Source of the DNA: Candidatus Poribacteria bacterium
Lineage (GTDB): Bacteria; Poribacteria; WGA-4E; WGA-3G
Assembly (NCBI GenBank): GCA_022827185.1
Contig: JAJDTM010000022.1
Location: 62,001-126,000 of the forward strand
Direction: 5' to 3'
DNA length: 64,000 nt
Positions 31,401 through 40,590 of this stretch are shown piece by piece (the stretch's first letter is position 1; every line of letters begins with the position of its first letter). The notes beneath the pieces are model-generated. The model had not been told where the DNA came from, did no database searches, and worked only from the letters and a program-made list of their open reading frames with translations. Made by a program: the position numbers and the translations under genes.

Positions 31401-32250
31401 AGCATCAGAGCAAAGCGTGCATCCTTCTCGGATGGAATGGTTTCTGAACGCACTCAGAGGTCAAACACGACTCTGGCTGACCGAGGAACAGGAGGTAGAG
31501 GATGCTGTTTCGCTATATCTACTCCAAAATCTACACGGTTCAGATACGCTTTTCGGGCGGGTGAACCAACACCATCGACTCGAATTCGTCCCCTCAACGG
31601 CGTTCAGTTTTGAACTTAACTTCCGGGCAGGGGAGACGCTCAACAAGCGGATTAATAACCAAGAACGCCACAGACGCCACAACACTTGGGATGTTGGCTT
31701 CTCTATGAATCCGACGCAACGTCTCTCTGTTGGCGCGAACTGGGAACAACGTCGGGAGACCGAAAAATATAGCCAACTCGATTTTGAAGACCTCGCGCAG
31801 GAAGAGGTGGGAGATCCTTCTCCGACACCTATCTCAGACCTGCGTCAGTTTGAGCAGATAACTGAACTGAATCTCCGATACCAGTTGAGTAAAACACTAC
31901 GATGGAGCGGTATCAGTGGCTATAAACGGACAATCGACGAGGAGCAACTTGACGAAGAACCCGAAGCCAAAACACGTACCTTTTCGTTTGAGAACCGCGT
32001 CACCTATAGTCTCATCGGTAAGGGACGCATTGATTTCAACTACAAACTCGGCTACGGCAAAAGCAGTGGCGGCATACCCTTCGCGCAATACACTTTCTAC
32101 GAAGGCATCAGCCACGAAATCCGGACGATAGCAGACTACAGATTACGGAAATTCACCGACCTACTACTGCGACTCAATTACCGTCTCCTCTCAACGAAAG
32201 AGCGGAAACCCGAACACCGTCTGGAGATGACCGTCAGTGCGGAACTTTAA
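28495..32250 (+). CDS. Large outer-membrane beta-barrel-like protein, SprA-like features
   Basis: 1251 residues. A signal peptide (cleavage near GSTAQES) precedes an N-terminal periplasmic region with 'SGSQTFGISLGSGRSISQNQ', 'LLSDQDLPIQPEG' and 'IQDIDQKLIRI', a pattern known from SprA and related giant secretion pores of FCB bacteria. The remainder is made of alternating amphipathic strands with many aromatic and charged residues, typical of a very large beta-barrel. It is shorter than SprA (about 2400 residues), so homology over the whole length is not claimed. A repeat core is read in frame near residue 600. If it is SprA-like it could export proteins that carry the FlgD-like sorting domain seen at 3545-4909. 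Its stop codon overlaps that of the convergent sigma-WD40 gene. Confidence 0.6.
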   Translation: MRIPLFFLASFCLCLLPCLGSTAQESADDKTKTLELPPFSVLQKTESIELKTGEREFTVKYPPILPNTEQLIEVDGKTLVRSIDYQIDFYSGKITIEAPDTTTTPYKITYRTLPFAIKEVYKRDLYGKQTPSTESTDSLLPKTGESEKVLGQPFGELGGTSSTGDGTSQLEVSGSQTFGISLGSGRSISQNQELRVNVEGKVSENISVLALLSDQDLPIQPEGTTENIQDIDQKLIRITHPNMKGTLGDFEGSLGTSEFIFFPRALEGVQVEGDFKWGSFHLIPSAIPKGQSTSLVLRGEEGRSEYRLTVDGQYVIVKAGSEIVWLNGERMRRGENNDYIIREYGDPIVEFNSKHLITSNDTIRIDFEYIPEDRAYQQNLYGLSSVFKLPGEWITLGASYAVEADLKEPEQALIILEETDLEALRQNILDPEEDGRSLLTAPQKHTVWGLESRVNITEKAWIEGELAYSNLDKNTYSTVDRKEVSQAWKLTGYADWDFATWTDKLRPKLNTNLDLRAMDADFVPVGASSSNRNRSRYETQYTKEGFDDAFLFGRGEVTSPSQNARDERTASFDIQLIPTDWLAVDAGISRSEEKEPQRDTPLIRGDKGGLADETETSPTTNATIRNNFNWGVNFNRRSGSGGITATTRRGNTRISGQEKATTASESKALSFKQNPSKGAQLLKKLPNLRWDDYRSSSRVEGEDSTRTQSQQKLRQEGNLAYPIGPFRIMGTLGRVESNEARNATLNRKRNRAIGRINLVDFSWASLNTSYELEEAYAKEPLLTVDDEPIGLSDWQRNTTGRTWKVGIFSQQKSFLSGGMNLTANLARRALKAHTDLGANTTTQLADINIQLTPLSRAIDIELTYELDKKLTSQRREVYTNIHPHTGVRLQPGDGYYVKLDDLHYVEDAEEGTYIKIYQNVGDKPTTAVDADFRLRFQPRQFFARRNRARQQQQQREAMLKGDSLRPTPPASEQSVHPSRMEWFLNALRGQTRLWLTEEQEVEDAVSLYLLQNLHGSDTLFGRVNQHHRLEFVPSTAFSFELNFRAGETLNKRINNQERHRRHNTWDVGFSMNPTQRLSVGANWEQRRETEKYSQLDFEDLAQEEVGDPSPTPISDLRQFEQITELNLRYQLSKTLRWSGISGYKRTIDEEQLDEEPEAKTRTFSFENRVTYSLIGKGRIDFNYKLGYGKSSGGIPFAQYTFYEGISHEIRTIADYRLRKFTDLLLRLNYRLLSTKERKPEHRLEMTVSAEL
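30293..30323. repeat. Family 1 repeat core within a coding sequence
   Basis: CCCCCCTGATAAGGGGGGAT followed by AAAGGGGGGTT is the palindrome of the MITE-like repeat. Here it is translated as 'TPLIRGDKGGLA' within the barrel protein. The ends TAGGACTTACGCA are not present. Confidence 0.75.
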
Positions 32251-35183
32251 CGTGATTCGGTGATAGCCTCATCCCAATCCCACAAAAAGATTGTACCATC
32301 CTGCGCTGTGCTAACCAACGTTTCACCGTCAGGCGAAAATTTTAACGTCTCCACTTCCTGCGTATGCCCATCAAGCGCAGCGATTCTGTCTCCTGTCTTG
32401 ACATCCCATAATTGGATTGTACCGCTGCCATGCCCATTGACGAGAATTGCGCCATCCGGCGAAAACACCAACGGTCTTGGATAATCATGATGTATCCCCC
32501 AACCGCGTTTATGCACAGTGCTCACCGAAAAAACTTTATGACCGGTCCGCACATTCCATAAATGGAGTTGACTCGGTGTACCCGCAGCGAGCAAGGCGCG
32601 GTCCGGTGAAAACGCCACTGCCGAAATATGACCCAGATTCTCTTGTTCCGTCGGTTCTGCAAAGACAGTCAAAGCTTCACCAGTCGCAACGTCCCACATT
32701 CGGATGTCGCCTTCTGTAGTGCCACTCACAAGCCATCTACCATCCGGTGAGAACGCCACTGCCAAAATTGTTGGCATATTTTCGTGAAAACCGAGGGGTA
32801 GGTCCACATAAAGCGGAATTACCAATTCATCACCTGTTTCCGTGTTCCATAAGCGAATGCCATTACCCGAAGTAGCCGCTACCGTTTTAGTTCTATCGTC
32901 AGGAGAAAAGATAAGTTCTCTGGCATGTTTCTGCCAGGTTGCAAGTTCGTCCCCAGTCGATACATCCGTCAACCGAGTTAGATTATCTGGCTTCGTAGTA
33001 GAGAACGCCATAGGGAACCCACCAAAAATTATAGTACCATCTGCCGCTGCACTGATGAGTTTCGTGCCATCCGGCGAAAACGCCATAGCTGAATACCAAT
33101 CCCGATGTCTACTATTTTGGACAGTAGACTTTTGCGATGTTTCCACATCCCAAAAGGTAATTTCACCGTTAAACGCCGCGCTGACAAGTGTGGAACTATC
33201 CTCAAAGAAGGTCGCCGCTTTTATGGAGTGTGTGTGCCCAGTGATAAGGGTATCTACTCGAGCCCCAGTCGCTGTCTGCCAGAATCGGATTGTGCCATCC
33301 GTACTCCCGCTGACGAGTGTCCGACCATCCGGTGAAAATGCTAACGCAGTGATACCGTTGATATGTCCAGTAAGCGTCGCGAGCGGTTCACCAGTGGTGG
33401 TATCCCACAATTGCACTGTTTTATCGGTACTGCCACTGGCAAGCATTTTTCCATCGGGTGAAAACGCCAACACATTTGTCGGTCCAGTATGTTTCTGCAG
33501 CGTCACCCAATCCTTGTCACCAGTAGTATCCCACAATCTTACTGTCGTATCTGTGCTGCCACTGGCGAGACGCGTGCCATCCGGCGAAAACGCCACTGCT
33601 AAGACCCAATTCTTTTTAAACATCCGATGCACAGGTTTATTCAACGGTTGAAGCGGCAAATCTACGTGCCCTCTGAGTGTCAATAACTTTTTACGGGTTG
33701 CTACATCCCATAACTGGATCGTCCCGTCCCTTTTTCCAATCGCGATTTTATCGCTTGTCATCGTGTAGATACCACTAAAATCCTCCGAACTAAAGAGACC
33801 GATCCCGAATAGCCCAGTTTTAAGGTGTTTTGTTTTTCCTTTCCCGTTCTCTATATTCAATTGGGTAATTGCAGCATGCCCGGAACTACTCAAACCGATA
33901 AGCGTTTTCCCATCCGAAGAGAATCGCAATACGGAAGCAGACCCGTACAAGTCAATAAGCGGCACTTCGCGCTCGGTAGCGATCTCCCACAATTGGATGA
34001 GCGTCTCCCGAGAAGAACTGGTAAGGAAACGGCCATCAGGTGAAAATCTGAGGGCTTCACACACGCCGCTGCCAAACAGAGATTTCTCTTCGCCTGTTTC
34101 CACATCATACAGCCACACCCCGATGTTGCTACCGACTGCAAGTAGGGTTCCATCCGGTGAAAACTGAATTGTGTTAATCCCACTTTTTCCAAAGCGCGCT
34201 TTCGCCGCTTTGGGCAACTTCCAATGTGCGTGGTTTTTAACTGTTTCATCTGATTCAGCGTCTGCAACCGATGCCGAAACGTCGTTAGGTTGCTGGTTGG
34301 AAATATCACCCTCGCTCGGTGTATTGACACTTCCAAACTGCGTCCGAATATCCGGTTTGGCTTCAAGGTTCAGTACAATCGGTGCTTCAATGAGTTCAAC
34401 TGCCATCTCTGATGGTGCGTCGAAACTATACGGTTTTTGAAAACGCGACAGGTATTGATGGTTTCCGATACCTAACATCAAAAGGACGACTGCTATTGTG
34501 GAAACACCGATTGCCCACGGCACGAACGGTTTGCTGTTAGATGGCGCAATCGGTTTCAGACGCGAAACCTCGCGCATGATATTCTCTGTAAGATTCGGTG
34601 TGATTTGGAAATGTTCTAAAGCCTCGCGAATCATGGGTTCCTCCTTCTTTAAGCGGTGGCGCGCACGGCTGAGGCGACTCTTAATCGCACCCACCGATAC
34701 ACCCAAAAACTTGCTAATCTCTTCACACGTCATCTCCCCGAAATAGTGGAGGGTCATGACCGTCCGCTCACTCTCCTGTAACTTCGCGAGCAGCTCTTTG
34801 ACGACTTCGCGCTGTGATTCCGCTGTTACGCGTTCGTTTTCCGAAATGACATACCCAGAATATGTAGCCTTTTCCAACTGCATGCCACCTGTGGCATCCA
34901 GCGACTGCATCCATAAACGCTTCCGACGCAGCCATGCCTTGCAACGGTTTGTGGCGATCACATAAAGCCAACTCGCAAAACGCTGCGGCTCCTTGAGCGT
35001 CGTCAGTTTCTGGTATGCTTTCAGGAAGGTGTCTTGTGTAATTTCCTCAGCGACATGGAAATCTCCAACCTTCCGCCACACAAGCGCGTGAACCGACTTC
35101 TGGTACTTTTTCACCAACTCAGCGAAAGCAGCATCATCGCCTTCAAGGACGCATTGAATCAGTCGAGTATCGTCATTTCTCAT
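32247..35183 (-). CDS. Membrane-anchored ECF sigma factor fused to a 14-blade WD40 domain
   Basis: 978 residues. ECF sigma region 2 (about 6-85) contains 'FAELVKKYQKSVHALVWRKV', 'QDTFLKAYQKL' and 'FASWLYVIATNR'. Region 4 (about 125-180) ends with the helix-turn-helix 'CEEISKFLGVSVGAIKSRLS'. A 40-residue linker, one transmembrane helix (about 221-240, 'VPWAIGVSTIAVVLLMLGIG'), a Pro/Asp-rich stalk and about fourteen WD40 repeats ('FSPDGxxLASGSxDxTVxLWD') follow, enough for two 7-blade propellers. The propellers are expected outside the cytoplasm. GGAGATATCCG precedes the ATG. A strong ribosome site plus ATG (34634) occurs inside at Met184. Similar fusions are known in Planctomycetes ECF families; how the sigma part is released is unknown. 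Confidence 0.92.
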   Translation of the reverse strand: MRNDDTRLIQCVLEGDDAAFAELVKKYQKSVHALVWRKVGDFHVAEEITQDTFLKAYQKLTTLKEPQRFASWLYVIATNRCKAWLRRKRLWMQSLDATGGMQLEKATYSGYVISENERVTAESQREVVKELLAKLQESERTVMTLHYFGEMTCEEISKFLGVSVGAIKSRLSRARHRLKKEEPMIREALEHFQITPNLTENIMREVSRLKPIAPSNSKPFVPWAIGVSTIAVVLLMLGIGNHQYLSRFQKPYSFDAPSEMAVELIEAPIVLNLEAKPDIRTQFGSVNTPSEGDISNQQPNDVSASVADAESDETVKNHAHWKLPKAAKARFGKSGINTIQFSPDGTLLAVGSNIGVWLYDVETGEEKSLFGSGVCEALRFSPDGRFLTSSSRETLIQLWEIATEREVPLIDLYGSASVLRFSSDGKTLIGLSSSGHAAITQLNIENGKGKTKHLKTGLFGIGLFSSEDFSGIYTMTSDKIAIGKRDGTIQLWDVATRKKLLTLRGHVDLPLQPLNKPVHRMFKKNWVLAVAFSPDGTRLASGSTDTTVRLWDTTGDKDWVTLQKHTGPTNVLAFSPDGKMLASGSTDKTVQLWDTTTGEPLATLTGHINGITALAFSPDGRTLVSGSTDGTIRFWQTATGARVDTLITGHTHSIKAATFFEDSSTLVSAAFNGEITFWDVETSQKSTVQNSRHRDWYSAMAFSPDGTKLISAAADGTIIFGGFPMAFSTTKPDNLTRLTDVSTGDELATWQKHARELIFSPDDRTKTVAATSGNGIRLWNTETGDELVIPLYVDLPLGFHENMPTILAVAFSPDGRWLVSGTTEGDIRMWDVATGEALTVFAEPTEQENLGHISAVAFSPDRALLAAGTPSQLHLWNVRTGHKVFSVSTVHKRGWGIHHDYPRPLVFSPDGAILVNGHGSGTIQLWDVKTGDRIAALDGHTQEVETLKFSPDGETLVSTAQDGTIFLWDWDEAITESR

Positions 35184-35213: not shown

Positions 35214-35239
35214 ATTTCACTTAACACCTTGTGACGCGA
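35214..35239 (-). promoter_or_regulatory. Conserved upstream motif of sigma-fusion genes, copy 1
   Basis: On the minus strand TCGCGTCAC, eight bases and AAGTGAAAT lie 31-56 bases before the ATG. The same two blocks with nine-base spacing precede the sigma-transglutaminase gene (40620-40646). The spacing is shorter than a normal ECF promoter, and residual paralogy could explain it, but an autoregulatory promoter is possible. Confidence 0.35.
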
Positions 35240-35327
35240 CTTAGGTCGAAAACGGTTGCAGAATTCTGCAATTTCTTAAATAGCAAGTTTCAGGAACCGA
35301 AACAATGATTGTCTATAGGTGAAAATC

Positions 35328-37673
35328 TCATTTAGGTGGAACGTCCCATAGGAGTATCGTTCCAGCAAAGCGGGAATACAGGTTTGTGCTTGCGAGCGTT
35401 TTTCCATCAGGCGCAAACACCAATTCTTTAACGGGACTCATGTATGGCTTGAAGGCGGCAAGTTTGTGTCCCGCAGGTAGCAACCACAACTGAATTGTCC
35501 CATCTATATCTCCACTTGCCAGAAAAGTCGCATTGGGCGCGAATGCTAATTTACAGACTTCACTTGTGTGCCCTTCAAGCGTTACAGATTTCCGGGTTGC
35601 GACATTCCATAAATAAATTGTTTTACCGGCACTCGCAGCAACGATGAGAGGTTCCCCAGCGCGCCCCAATGCCACAGCACCCACTGGCACATCCAAACAC
35701 TTCATACCGAACAGTGCTTGCAATTTATCTATCAAATTCAGTTTCTCCTTAGCAACACTGAATATAGCAAATGTTTCACCAGTATCGGTATTCGACGAGT
35801 GGACCTCCGATCCTTTGCCCATTGCAATCACTTCACCATCTTGTGTAAATGCAAAGCTAAACGCCAGCACAGGACTCCGGTTTGGGCCACCGCCTCCAAG
35901 TGTACACAGGTGTCTTTGGGTAAGAACATCCCATATCTCCATCGCATCAATCCGATTTTGAATAACCAGTTTTTCACCGTTTGGTGAGAAAACGGCTGGA
36001 TGTAAGCGATGACCTGCCCTCTCAAACGATGTTGCGAAAAGATGATACATTGCCGGGGTCCGAGGCATTGGCACAGTAACCAAACCAGGCGTTAACAGAG
36101 TCATCGGCACGCCACGAGGCACGTTCGCGAGGTCGTAATCGGTACGATATTCTCCAGTAGCGGCATCCCATATTTCAACTTTGCCGGAAATGGTCAAAGC
36201 AGCGAGAGTGGTACTATCTGCCAAAGCAGCGAAGGGTGTGTTATATTCAGAAAACGCTAAACCGATGATTTCGCTTCCATCTTCCATTGGCACAGCAGCT
36301 CGCCAATTCGGTTCAATATGTTTTTTTCCCTTCTCGCGGTGTCCGGGGAGTTGCATCCGCAATCTTTCGGTGCCAGTATTTGTATCCCACAGATGAATTT
36401 TGCTACCCGTGCTGGTCGCAATCGTTTTCCCATCGTGCGAGAACACTAACGTGAAAAACCTACTCGTCCATCCCGTCGTCAAGGTGCGTTCATGCTTGCC
36501 AGTCTGTGCTGACCACACATCCACTGTGCCGTGGTGATTCATAGTGATAACAGTTGCGCCATCCGCTGACAGCACAAATTCCCACAAACCACCACTCTTA
36601 TTTTTAAGTGTAGCAACCTGCGAATATGTATCCATATTCCATATCTCAATATCGTCTAACCCCGCAACAGCAAGCGTTTTCCCATCTTTTGAGAATGCAG
36701 GTATCGCTGGATACCCCTCGAAATTTGCGACCCTTTTTGGAAACGTTGCCACCTGTTTTCCTGTCTCAAGGTCCCAGAGACTTACGTTCTTGGAAGTCGC
36801 AATCGCAAGCCTTCTGCCATCTGGCGTAAAACTGAACGCTCTTACCTCGCCGTTAGGTTTTGGAAGCGTAGTTATTTTACGATTCGTGCGTCCATCTTTA
36901 ACGCTAATTGTTCCGTCTTTGTTCTCAAAGGCGAAGATAACACGCGTGCTATCCGCAAATGCCTTCACCCTAACACTGGTACGTGCATCTTTAAGCGGAT
37001 TAAATCTCGGTAACTTGGTGGTGAAAGTGTCTAACTGCCTTCCAGAGGAAACATCCCACATCCAGACCTTAGGGACATCCCATCTCCAAGGATCTCCACC
37101 AATCAAATCGTGTGAAGCTTTGTCAATCGATCCCTTACCGACAAGGGTTTTTCCATCATCCAAGAATGTCAATCTGTTGATCCAATAATTAGGCAGCTTG
37201 AATGTGAGTAAAAGTTTCTGACTTTCAACATCCCAGATACGACATGCGTTGTCCCCACCAGCAGTAGCAAGCATTGTACCATCAGGAGAAAATGCCACCA
37301 GTCCGATTAAAACCATATTCTCTGTGATAAGCGCAATTTCATCACCAGTACTGACATCATAAAGCCATACACCTGCAGAACTCGCAATCGCCAAGCGAGT
37401 ACCATCGGTGGACAACTGCATATCGGTGAAGGTGCCTTTCCCAATCCTCGCTTTTGCACCTTCAGGCAAACTCCACCGGGTGTAGTCTTCTGGGTTCGCT
37501 AAAACCCGATGCGTCTGGATCAGCAGCACGACCATCACCAAAGCAGTGATTACCCACCACACAAACGGTTTACTATCAGAAGAAGCAGAAAACTTAGCGA
37601 ACGGCATCTCATATATCACATTCTTGCCGGGATTCAGTGTGATTTGAAAATTATCTAAAGCATTCCGAATCAT
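35328..37673 (-). CDS. Membrane-anchored WD40 protein, sigma-less paralogue
   Basis: About 781 residues, starting at ATG 37673 with GGAGG six bases upstream. Its first residues 'MIRNALDNFQITLNPGKNVI' align with residues 184 onward of the sigma-WD40 protein ('MIREALEHFQITPNLTENI'). A transmembrane helix ('WWVITALVMVVLLIQT') and about a dozen WD40-like blades follow. The sigma domain is missing entirely and the sequence upstream of the start has no trace of it. The blades are more diverged and some lack the WD dipeptide. It may act as a sensor without output, or partner the neighbouring sigma proteins. Confidence 0.85.
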   Translation of the reverse strand: MIRNALDNFQITLNPGKNVIYEMPFAKFSASSDSKPFVWWVITALVMVVLLIQTHRVLANPEDYTRWSLPEGAKARIGKGTFTDMQLSTDGTRLAIASSAGVWLYDVSTGDEIALITENMVLIGLVAFSPDGTMLATAGGDNACRIWDVESQKLLLTFKLPNYWINRLTFLDDGKTLVGKGSIDKASHDLIGGDPWRWDVPKVWMWDVSSGRQLDTFTTKLPRFNPLKDARTSVRVKAFADSTRVIFAFENKDGTISVKDGRTNRKITTLPKPNGEVRAFSFTPDGRRLAIATSKNVSLWDLETGKQVATFPKRVANFEGYPAIPAFSKDGKTLAVAGLDDIEIWNMDTYSQVATLKNKSGGLWEFVLSADGATVITMNHHGTVDVWSAQTGKHERTLTTGWTSRFFTLVFSHDGKTIATSTGSKIHLWDTNTGTERLRMQLPGHREKGKKHIEPNWRAAVPMEDGSEIIGLAFSEYNTPFAALADSTTLAALTISGKVEIWDAATGEYRTDYDLANVPRGVPMTLLTPGLVTVPMPRTPAMYHLFATSFERAGHRLHPAVFSPNGEKLVIQNRIDAMEIWDVLTQRHLCTLGGGGPNRSPVLAFSFAFTQDGEVIAMGKGSEVHSSNTDTGETFAIFSVAKEKLNLIDKLQALFGMKCLDVPVGAVALGRAGEPLIVAASAGKTIYLWNVATRKSVTLEGHTSEVCKLAFAPNATFLASGDIDGTIQLWLLPAGHKLAAFKPYMSPVKELVFAPDGKTLASTNLYSRFAGTILLWDVPPK

Positions 37674-37773
37674 GGGTTCCTCCGTGCTGACATACACGGT
37701 AAAGACGCATCTTATCTGTTAATAGAATTATACCATAAACCCAACCAAAAGTGCATACGTCCGAAAAGAAGTA

Positions 37774-38253: not shown

Positions 38254-40590
38254 CTATTCAACAATGGCAATTTCAAGTTGATTGAGCGTTCGGAAAATGC
38301 CTTCAGCAAATTCATTCAGATTATCTGATTCCAAGGTACTTCCATCAAGTTGAATATGATTCGCATCGGCGATGGTCTGTCCCAATGTTGGATCCATCTG
38401 TACCCACCTGCCAACGTAGACTTCAGCCCAGAAGTGGTAGTAAAAGGCATCCTGTCCAAATATGATACCGGAGCAGATACGTGCCGGAATTCCAGCAGCT
38501 CGTGCTAAAGCAATAAAAAGCACAGTGTGTTCCGTGCAATCCCCGGAGAGCGATTCCAGGGCAGTTAAGGATGAACCGAAACCACCACTCACTTTTTTCT
38601 CCGTAATGGCTGTATGAACCCATTGACATAATTTCTCTGCCGCACGCCATGAATTGACTTCCCCGTCTAATATTTCTGCGGTTTTCGCACGAATCGCTGG
38701 TGCGTCAGTTTGAATATAAGCACTCGCGCCAAGGAACTTACCTTCAGCATCCTGAACCGGTAAATCGGGGCAATCCTCCGCTGCAACTGTTGGCACCTGA
38801 ATCGAAAGTCTACCTGAATGCTCACTGTTTGCTTCCAGCTTTTGACGGGAATTAGACATGATGGCATCAGCGATACTTCCTGATGTCAATTTTACGTCGG
38901 CTTCAAAGTTTCTCGCGTTTCGCGTAGGGTGTTTGCCGGAGGGAAGAATACGCGTTTTTAAAACGATATCAACCTCTTCCGTATCGCCAAACGCGGCCTC
39001 CTTATCGGTTTTTGTTGTTACCATAGAGAAACCCATCATCGGCACCTCGCTTCGGTAACTTACACCATCAGTGTCAAGCCAGACTTTCTGAGTGACCCCA
39101 TTCATCATGTCCACTGTTTGACGTAAAACATAGACCTGCTTTTCTTCTGATTGGTAGGTTAAAGTATCCTGCCCTTCAACCTCGAGTTCCGCTTTCACTG
39201 GCTTCAACAGATCAAAACTGAAAATGTGGAAGTTCAGTTTGTCGCCTATTTTAAGGCCTTTCCGGAAGAGTGATTCGACACCTGTATATTCAGAAATTGT
39301 ATCCGGTGGTACAGGAACTTCTGATTCGGTAGTTTCGCCATTGAGCGTTGTCTTAATGTAAGCAACACCATCTACAATACGCCCCTCCACCTGTTTTAAA
39401 CCGGACTCATTGGAGGTTGAGAGGAAGTGACGCGGCATTAAATCGGAACCTATATACTCAACGCGGGTGCTTTCAATTGTTACATCGCTCCCGAGTCCCT
39501 TAAGATTCATAACTATATTAATTTTGTTACGATCCACCTCTTTCCCTTCATACTCGGTTTTTTCACTGGATATGTGCATGTAACCGATCTTGGTATTCAT
39601 CAAGGTGAAATTGTACCAGTGTTCTTTCGGATTTTGTGGCATGTTTTCAGGAACATCTTCTTCGTCCACCTGCACTGCAGCAAATAGCACTTCATCAGGT
39701 TGCTGACCGGCACCATCATTTTTATTCGGCGCAGCAGTGCTTCCGGGTTGCATCCGAACATCTGGCTTGGATTCAAGGTCCAGCACAACGGGTGCGTCAA
39801 TGATCTCTATTGTCATCTCTGACGTAGCATCAAAACTATAGGGACGCTGGAAACGTGCTAAGTATTGGCTGCCAATACCTAACATCAAGAATATTACGGC
39901 GATTGTAGAAACGGCGATTGCCCACGGGACCAACGGTTTATTACCAGATGGTGCGACAGGTTTCAAACGCGAAATCTCACGCATGATATTCTCTGTAAGA
40001 TTCGGCGTAATTTGGAAGTTGCCTAAAGCCTCTCGTATCATCGGTTCCTCCTTTTTTAAGCGACGACGCGCACGGTAGAGACGATTCCGAATCGCCGCCT
40101 CCGATACACCTAAAAACTCGCTTATCTCTTCGTACGTCATTCCTCCGAGGTAGTAGAGCGTGATGACAGTTCGATCACTCTCCTGCAACTTCGCAAGCAA
40201 CTTTTTGACGACTTCGCGTTGTGCTTCCGTTGTCATGCGCTCGTTCTCCGCAATGATATATCCAGAATAAGTTGCTTTTTCCAATTGCGCGCTGCTCGTG
40301 TCTTCCAACGACTGCGTCCACGTCTGATTTTTTCGGTGCCACGCTGTGCAGTGATGTGCGGTTATCACATAAAGCCAACTCGCAAAGGACTGTGGTTCCT
40401 TTAACGTAGAGAGTCTCTGATACGCTTTCAGGAACGTCTCTTGTGTAATATCCTCGGCGATATGGAAATCTCCAACCTTCCGCCACGCAAGCGCGTGAAC
40501 GGATCGCTGATATTTTTTCACGAGTGTGGAGAACGCCGTATCATCACCATCAAGCACGCGTTGGATAAGCTGAGCATCATCGTTTTTCAT
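38254..40590 (-). CDS. Membrane-anchored ECF sigma factor fused to a transglutaminase-like domain
   Basis: 778 residues. Its first 250 residues match the sigma-WD40 protein closely: region 2 ('FSTLVKKYQRSVHALAWRKV'), region 4 ('YEEISEFLGVSEAAIRNRLY') and a transmembrane helix 'VPWAIAVSTIAVIFLMLGIG' at about 221-240. The WD40 part is replaced by a beta-rich domain and a C-terminal transglutaminase-like fold. The likely catalytic residues are Cys685 in 'SLSGDCTEHTVLF', His719 in 'FYYHFWAEVYVG' and Asp733 in 'MDPTLG'. The enzyme domain is expected on the periplasmic side, where it could act as protease, crosslinker or peptidoglycan-binding sensor. GAGGTATCCG precedes the start. Met184 again has a strong internal ribosome site. 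Confidence 0.9.
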   Translation of the reverse strand: MKNDDAQLIQRVLDGDDTAFSTLVKKYQRSVHALAWRKVGDFHIAEDITQETFLKAYQRLSTLKEPQSFASWLYVITAHHCTAWHRKNQTWTQSLEDTSSAQLEKATYSGYIIAENERMTTEAQREVVKKLLAKLQESDRTVITLYYLGGMTYEEISEFLGVSEAAIRNRLYRARRRLKKEEPMIREALGNFQITPNLTENIMREISRLKPVAPSGNKPLVPWAIAVSTIAVIFLMLGIGSQYLARFQRPYSFDATSEMTIEIIDAPVVLDLESKPDVRMQPGSTAAPNKNDGAGQQPDEVLFAAVQVDEEDVPENMPQNPKEHWYNFTLMNTKIGYMHISSEKTEYEGKEVDRNKINIVMNLKGLGSDVTIESTRVEYIGSDLMPRHFLSTSNESGLKQVEGRIVDGVAYIKTTLNGETTESEVPVPPDTISEYTGVESLFRKGLKIGDKLNFHIFSFDLLKPVKAELEVEGQDTLTYQSEEKQVYVLRQTVDMMNGVTQKVWLDTDGVSYRSEVPMMGFSMVTTKTDKEAAFGDTEEVDIVLKTRILPSGKHPTRNARNFEADVKLTSGSIADAIMSNSRQKLEANSEHSGRLSIQVPTVAAEDCPDLPVQDAEGKFLGASAYIQTDAPAIRAKTAEILDGEVNSWRAAEKLCQWVHTAITEKKVSGGFGSSLTALESLSGDCTEHTVLFIALARAAGIPARICSGIIFGQDAFYYHFWAEVYVGRWVQMDPTLGQTIADANHIQLDGSTLESDNLNEFAEGIFRTLNQLEIAIVE

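Follow-up and report, generated by a model that had tools for sequence, protein, structure and literature searches.

A probable internal translation start at the sigma/membrane junction of ECF sigma-sensor fusion genes in Poribacteria

Introduction

Translation starts that lie in frame within a longer gene are known (PMC9430671, PMC11005335). In CTP1L-type endolysins, one gene with an internal ribosome-binding site at a domain border gives both a full-length and a C-terminal-only protein (PMC4777826, PMC9430671), and the truncated product of CTP1L assembles with the full-length protein and alters its activity (PMC4777826). CheA-S, IF2 beta and CcmM-S are likewise N-terminally truncated isoforms arising from internal in-frame starts, and alternative starts tend towards stronger Shine-Dalgarno (SD) sequences than annotated ones (PMC11005335). 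As for sigma factors, PMC8999054 describes ECF proteins with C-terminal extensions, namely ECF57 (WD40) and ECF48/52/53 and IutY (transmembrane (TM) anti-sigma fusions), and PMC8567305 describes planctomycete ECF-WD40 fusions.

The Poribacteria genes analysed here resemble the endolysins in the layout of one gene, a domain-border internal ribosome-binding site and a full-length plus a predicted C-terminal-only protein; they differ in that the parts joined are a sigma factor and a membrane sensor, that about 20 strong sites occur per genome and that a heteromer of the products is putative. CheA-S, IF2 beta and CcmM-S are single genes and experimentally shown, whereas here we deal with a paralogous family studied by computation only. 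The likeness to ECF57, ECF48/52/53, IutY and the planctomycete ECF-WD40 proteins is one of domain layout, a single chain in which sigma2-sigma4 precede a TM and/or WD40 sensor, and in the available parts of the two sources (PMC8999054, PMC8567305) we found no internal start described for any of them. A limited search of the open-access literature found no description of an internal start in combination with an ECF-WD40/TM fusion; each part is already known by itself.

Results

Junction element in the sigma-WD40 gene

The window, a 64,000-nt stretch of a Candidatus Poribacteria contig, contains an ECF sigma fusion gene with the following features:

32247..35183, minus strand: ECF sigma-transmembrane-WD40 fusion gene, 978 aa (open frame; WD40 families by Pfam)
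34635..35183, minus strand: sigma module, codons 1-183 (alignment with paralogue and relatives; AF2)
34640..34646, minus strand: internal SD AAGGAGG (sequence; duplex energy)
34632..34634, minus strand: internal in-frame ATG, codon 184, 5 nt 3' of the SD (sequence)
32247..34634, minus strand: predicted short product, a sigma-less juxtamembrane-TM-WD40 protein of 795 aa (from the internal start)
34461..34523, minus strand: hydrophobic segment around FVPWAIGVSTIAVVLLMLGIG, probable membrane anchor (sequence; AF2 helix 224-240, low confidence)

The sigma part of the 978-aa protein aligns with a neighbouring paralogue that matches Sigma70_r2/r4, and AF2 modelling of residues 1-285 gave confident sigma2 and moderate sigma4 helices. 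At the sigma/membrane junction the minus strand reads AAGGAGGAACCCATG, spelt AAG GAG GAA CCC ATG with AACCC as the spacer between SD and ATG. The open reading frame thus holds an SD and an in-frame start codon at functional spacing, with a duplex energy of -12.6 kcal/mol at the internal SD versus -6.4 at the gene's own start. The genome's 16S rRNA ends 3' in GGATCACCTCCTTTCT, the canonical anti-SD, so that AAGGAGG is a full-strength SD in this organism. A synonymous respelling of the junction without the SD is AAAGAAGAA. The hydrophobic segment lies about 40 residues past the internal start, and the predicted short product would lack the sigma module, codons 1-183. Packing of the segment after the ATG on the sigma domain was considered and set aside, as AF2 pLDDT falls below 50 from residue 188, too low to judge.

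The same element in a neighbouring paralogue

The preliminary description of this DNA had claimed the element both in the sigma-WD40 gene (ATG 34634) and in a sigma-transglutaminase gene (ATG 40041), and the sequence confirms both. The second gene comprises:

38254..40590, minus strand: ECF sigma-TM-transglutaminase fusion, 778 aa, same junction (Pfam Sigma70_r2, r4, Transglut_core)
40039..40053, minus strand: internal SD and ATG, AAGGAGGAACCGATG, ATG 40041 (sequence)

Its matches to Sigma70_r2, r4_2 and Sigma70_ECF (Pfam) establish the presence of sigma2 and sigma4, to which the sigma part of the WD40 fusion is homologous by alignment. The sensor extensions are WD40 repeats and a transglutaminase core (Pfam), and the TM helix (224-240) is supported by sequence and the low-confidence model. 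Here too the internal SD is the stronger one (-12.2 versus -7.2 at the own start).

Three copies of the pattern GGAGGAACCNATG lie in the window (34632-34644, 37671-37683 and 40039-40051, all minus strand) against an expected count of 0.02 from dinucleotide shuffles; they are homologous and so not independent. An SD energy of -10 kcal/mol or lower was found at only 0.9% of 1277 in-frame internal ATGs of non-family open reading frames and 2.8% of the other in-frame internal ATGs within family genes, but at 90% of the 151 junction ATGs with glutamate at the SD position. The SD and ATG at the junction are not there by chance.

Genes that begin at the homologous ATG

The middle copy of the pattern belongs to a gene without a sigma module:

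35328..37673, minus strand: sigma-less TM-WD40 paralogue, 781 aa from ATG 37673 (five-species alignment)
37671..37683, minus strand: GGAGGAACCCATG, start of the sigma-less paralogue (sequence)
37727..37736, minus strand: extended -10 promoter-like TGGTATAAT upstream of the gene (kept in five species)

The longest open reading frame begins 24 nt further upstream, at GTG 37697. In the orthologues, found in at least four other species, the region upstream of the ATG shows frame-breaking indels, the conserved TGGTATAAT and purine-rich SDs, while the region downstream is under purifying selection (dN/dS 0.21-0.27). Because of the upstream indels and the conserved promoter, ATG 37673 is likely the true start, as had been proposed together with the origin of such genes by loss of the upstream part.

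That origin gains support from the window paralogue and from a separate sigma loss by a different member in another genome (G006), where a 21-residue sigma4 remnant ending in a stop lies upstream of a 799-aa open reading frame that follows an SD and is intact and collinear with its fused relatives. Its dN/dS relative to these is close to the values that the fused genes show with one another. Between remnant and sensor frame (locus L145, 16840-17086) there is a small insert containing GGCAATGAATTGCCCTACTACGAA, a word also present in one other fetched locus. A further candidate for a natural two-gene version, locus L158 with a TAA 21 nt before the ATG, was rejected: its C-terminal half carries a deletion and a frameshift, and it is probably a pseudogene.

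Distribution within the family

The 6.1-Mb genome has about 80 sigma fusions of this kind, with WD40, transglutaminase or other C-terminal parts. Many of these paralogues stand in tandem arrays, and their number marks an extreme expansion of membrane sigma factors of the one-piece type; related genus-level genomes gave about 40 to 105 matches each to the query, some of them ordinary ECF sigma factors. The junction ATG is present in 36 of the 81 scored members and absent in 45, and ATG with a strong SD (energy of -10 or lower) is present in 21 and absent in 60. Members without the ATG carry ATA, ATC, TTG and other codons there and tend towards GAA; in one subclade the ATG is kept with a weak SD (AAAGAAGAACC).

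Family-wide, ATG and SD tend to occur together (Fisher 1.6e-11), but this signal vanished when 16 pairs chosen for phylogenetic independence were compared (6 v 8, p=0.79) and we dropped covariation as evidence. The coupling is therefore a property of clades, one clade plus a replicate in f2 and f4, two other families of its order.

Selection on the SD-forming synonymous sites

We aligned 243 distinct family members from 20-odd genomes; 142 of them, drawn from many genus-level genomes, carry the peptide xEEPM. The first glutamate (E1) is GAG in 132/142 (family-wide share of GAG 48%), the second (E2) is GAA in 135/142, and the codon before E1 (K1) has a third-base G in 131/142 despite encoding K, E, R or Q in different genes (family-wide AAG share 39%). 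Pairs of glutamates are spelt GAGGAA in 126/142 genes (89%) at the junction versus 21-30% elsewhere. Under synonymous resampling an SD energy of -6.4 would be expected, while -10.7 is observed.

Changes were counted by parsimony on a tree from which the junction codons had been left out. The third base changed 5 times at K1, 6 times at E1 and 7 times at E2, the median being 25, and among 156 variable codons K1 has the fewest third-base changes in proportion to its first-plus-second-base changes (5 vs 20). The four-codon windows with the fewest third-base changes start at E1, K1 and K0; the E1 window contains methionine, which has no synonyms, and the K1 window, K1-E1-E2-P, is free of it and ranks second slowest of 251, overlapping the slowest one. 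Over 257 codons in the 142 genes the SD-forming codons are nearly the slowest synonymous stretch, while flanking synonymous sites are fast (L 34, K0 25 and I 36 changes). When only E, K and Q sites are compared, K1, E1 and E2 rank second, sixth and eighth of 44, so slowness of this degree is shared by a few other synonymous sites. Conservation of the SD beyond codon need, the test that the preliminary description had set, holds in the KEEPM clade, where it exceeds what codon usage and neighbouring codons call for, and in f2/f4, but does not extend to the whole family.

Start-site features and distant relatives

Strong SDs and open RNA at the start are ordinary features of true bacterial translation starts. 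The mean junction SD energy is -11.8 kcal/mol versus -8.8 at the genes' own starts, the junction being stronger in 126 of 151 genes, in line with the tendency noted for alternative starts (PMC11005335). Of 25 positions compared, the junction ATG has some of the weakest RNA structure around it, below the level given by synonymous resampling (z +0.8 at the ATG and +1.3 ten codons further along), the codons 3' of the ATG are A/T-rich and unstructured, and GC3 over the ten codons after it is third lowest of 255 windows. Arginine codon 186, two after the ATG, alternates between C and A at its first base but keeps A at its third (27 first/second-base versus 7 third-base changes by parsimony), as might be expected under selection for an open start region.

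In f2 and f4 a GGAG-type SD and ATG are kept with the peptides KEELTM, KKELIPM, KEELIKM, KEMLTM and SEEAIPM, the spacing of the junction being shifted by one to two codons. The SD is stronger than the synonymous expectation in all 17 of 17 genes having methionine there, with a slight bias because the ATG with the best SD was picked where several were present. Such junctions also occur in further named Poribacteria loci, and three GTDB families of the order have SD plus ATG placed precisely on the domain border.

Discussion

Selection on the SD synonymous sites, open RNA, relatives with other peptides and genes that start at the homologous ATG together make a working internal translation start the best explanation of AAGGAGG-N5-ATG at the junction, and on these sequence comparisons we consider it probable. 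The preliminary reading of the element as an internal start is sustained by the conserved SD sites and by the other junction peptides that keep SD and ATG; it does not carry over to the 45 of 81 members that have no ATG there.

The element might instead be a leftover of an operon fusion, in which once-separate, translationally coupled genes for a sigma factor and a sensor or anti-sigma factor were joined and the second gene's start persists unused. Its exact place at the domain border in three families would suit this, as would the known ECF-anti-sigma fusions (PMC8999054). An unused SD should drift, yet its synonymous sites are nearly the slowest of the region in the KEEPM clade and RNA openness is retained, and we regard such a fossil as unlikely. 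Less likely still is an artefact, produced by constraint on the protein together with codon-pair preference or by gene conversion between paralogues: the KEEPM peptide is conserved and tandem clustering makes conversion possible, but the preference fails where GAGGAA spells only 21-30% of EE pairs elsewhere, SD and ATG survive in relatives with other peptides, and the fast-evolving codons that flank the slow SD sites refute it. A role for the SD-like sequence in slowing elongating ribosomes, so that the sigma part folds before the TM helix emerges and the ATG is incidental, fits a domain boundary some 40 residues ahead of the TM segment; it leaves the 5-9 nt spacing to the ATG unexplained and does not account for the A/T-rich unstructured codons after it or for genes beginning there, and seems to us the most improbable of the three.

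If the internal start works, initiation at the gene's own start would give the membrane-anchored ECF sigma-sensor fusion, and initiation inside the same mRNA would give a protein that lacks the sigma part and consists of a short tail in the cytoplasm, a TM helix and a sensor domain in the periplasm. Each gene bearing the element probably makes the full protein and the sensor-only protein; that both are made in the cell, and with this topology, we infer. The short form may then dilute, sequester or cooperate with the long one; the preliminary description had suggested that it could dimerise with the long form or sequester it. By analogy with CTP1L the short form may, tentatively, pair with the long one by way of the sensor/TM part common to both, and in this way determine how many sigma domains a sensor complex contains. 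A somewhat more doubtful extension is that the whole paralogous family consists of two-product genes, in which a sigma-free sensor joins the fusion, sets the sigma number per complex and restores a separate sensor.

Were the internal start real, gene counts and annotations would understate the products of a very large Poribacteria regulator family, and there would be a concrete way to approach the restraint of membrane-tethered sigma factors. With its many paralogues and spelling variants, the family is also a clean case for telling selection on an internal ribosome-binding site apart from selection on the protein.

A separate observation concerns the genes' own upstream regions. A GCAACC...GCGTCAC(TAT) pair, at 35231-35259 (minus strand) in the window and upstream of many members, resembles an ECF -35/-10 promoter, and 70 of 211 family genes have [AG]TCACTAT in the 150 nt preceding them, frequently at -52 or -28. 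This suggests that the sigma factors of the family control their own genes.
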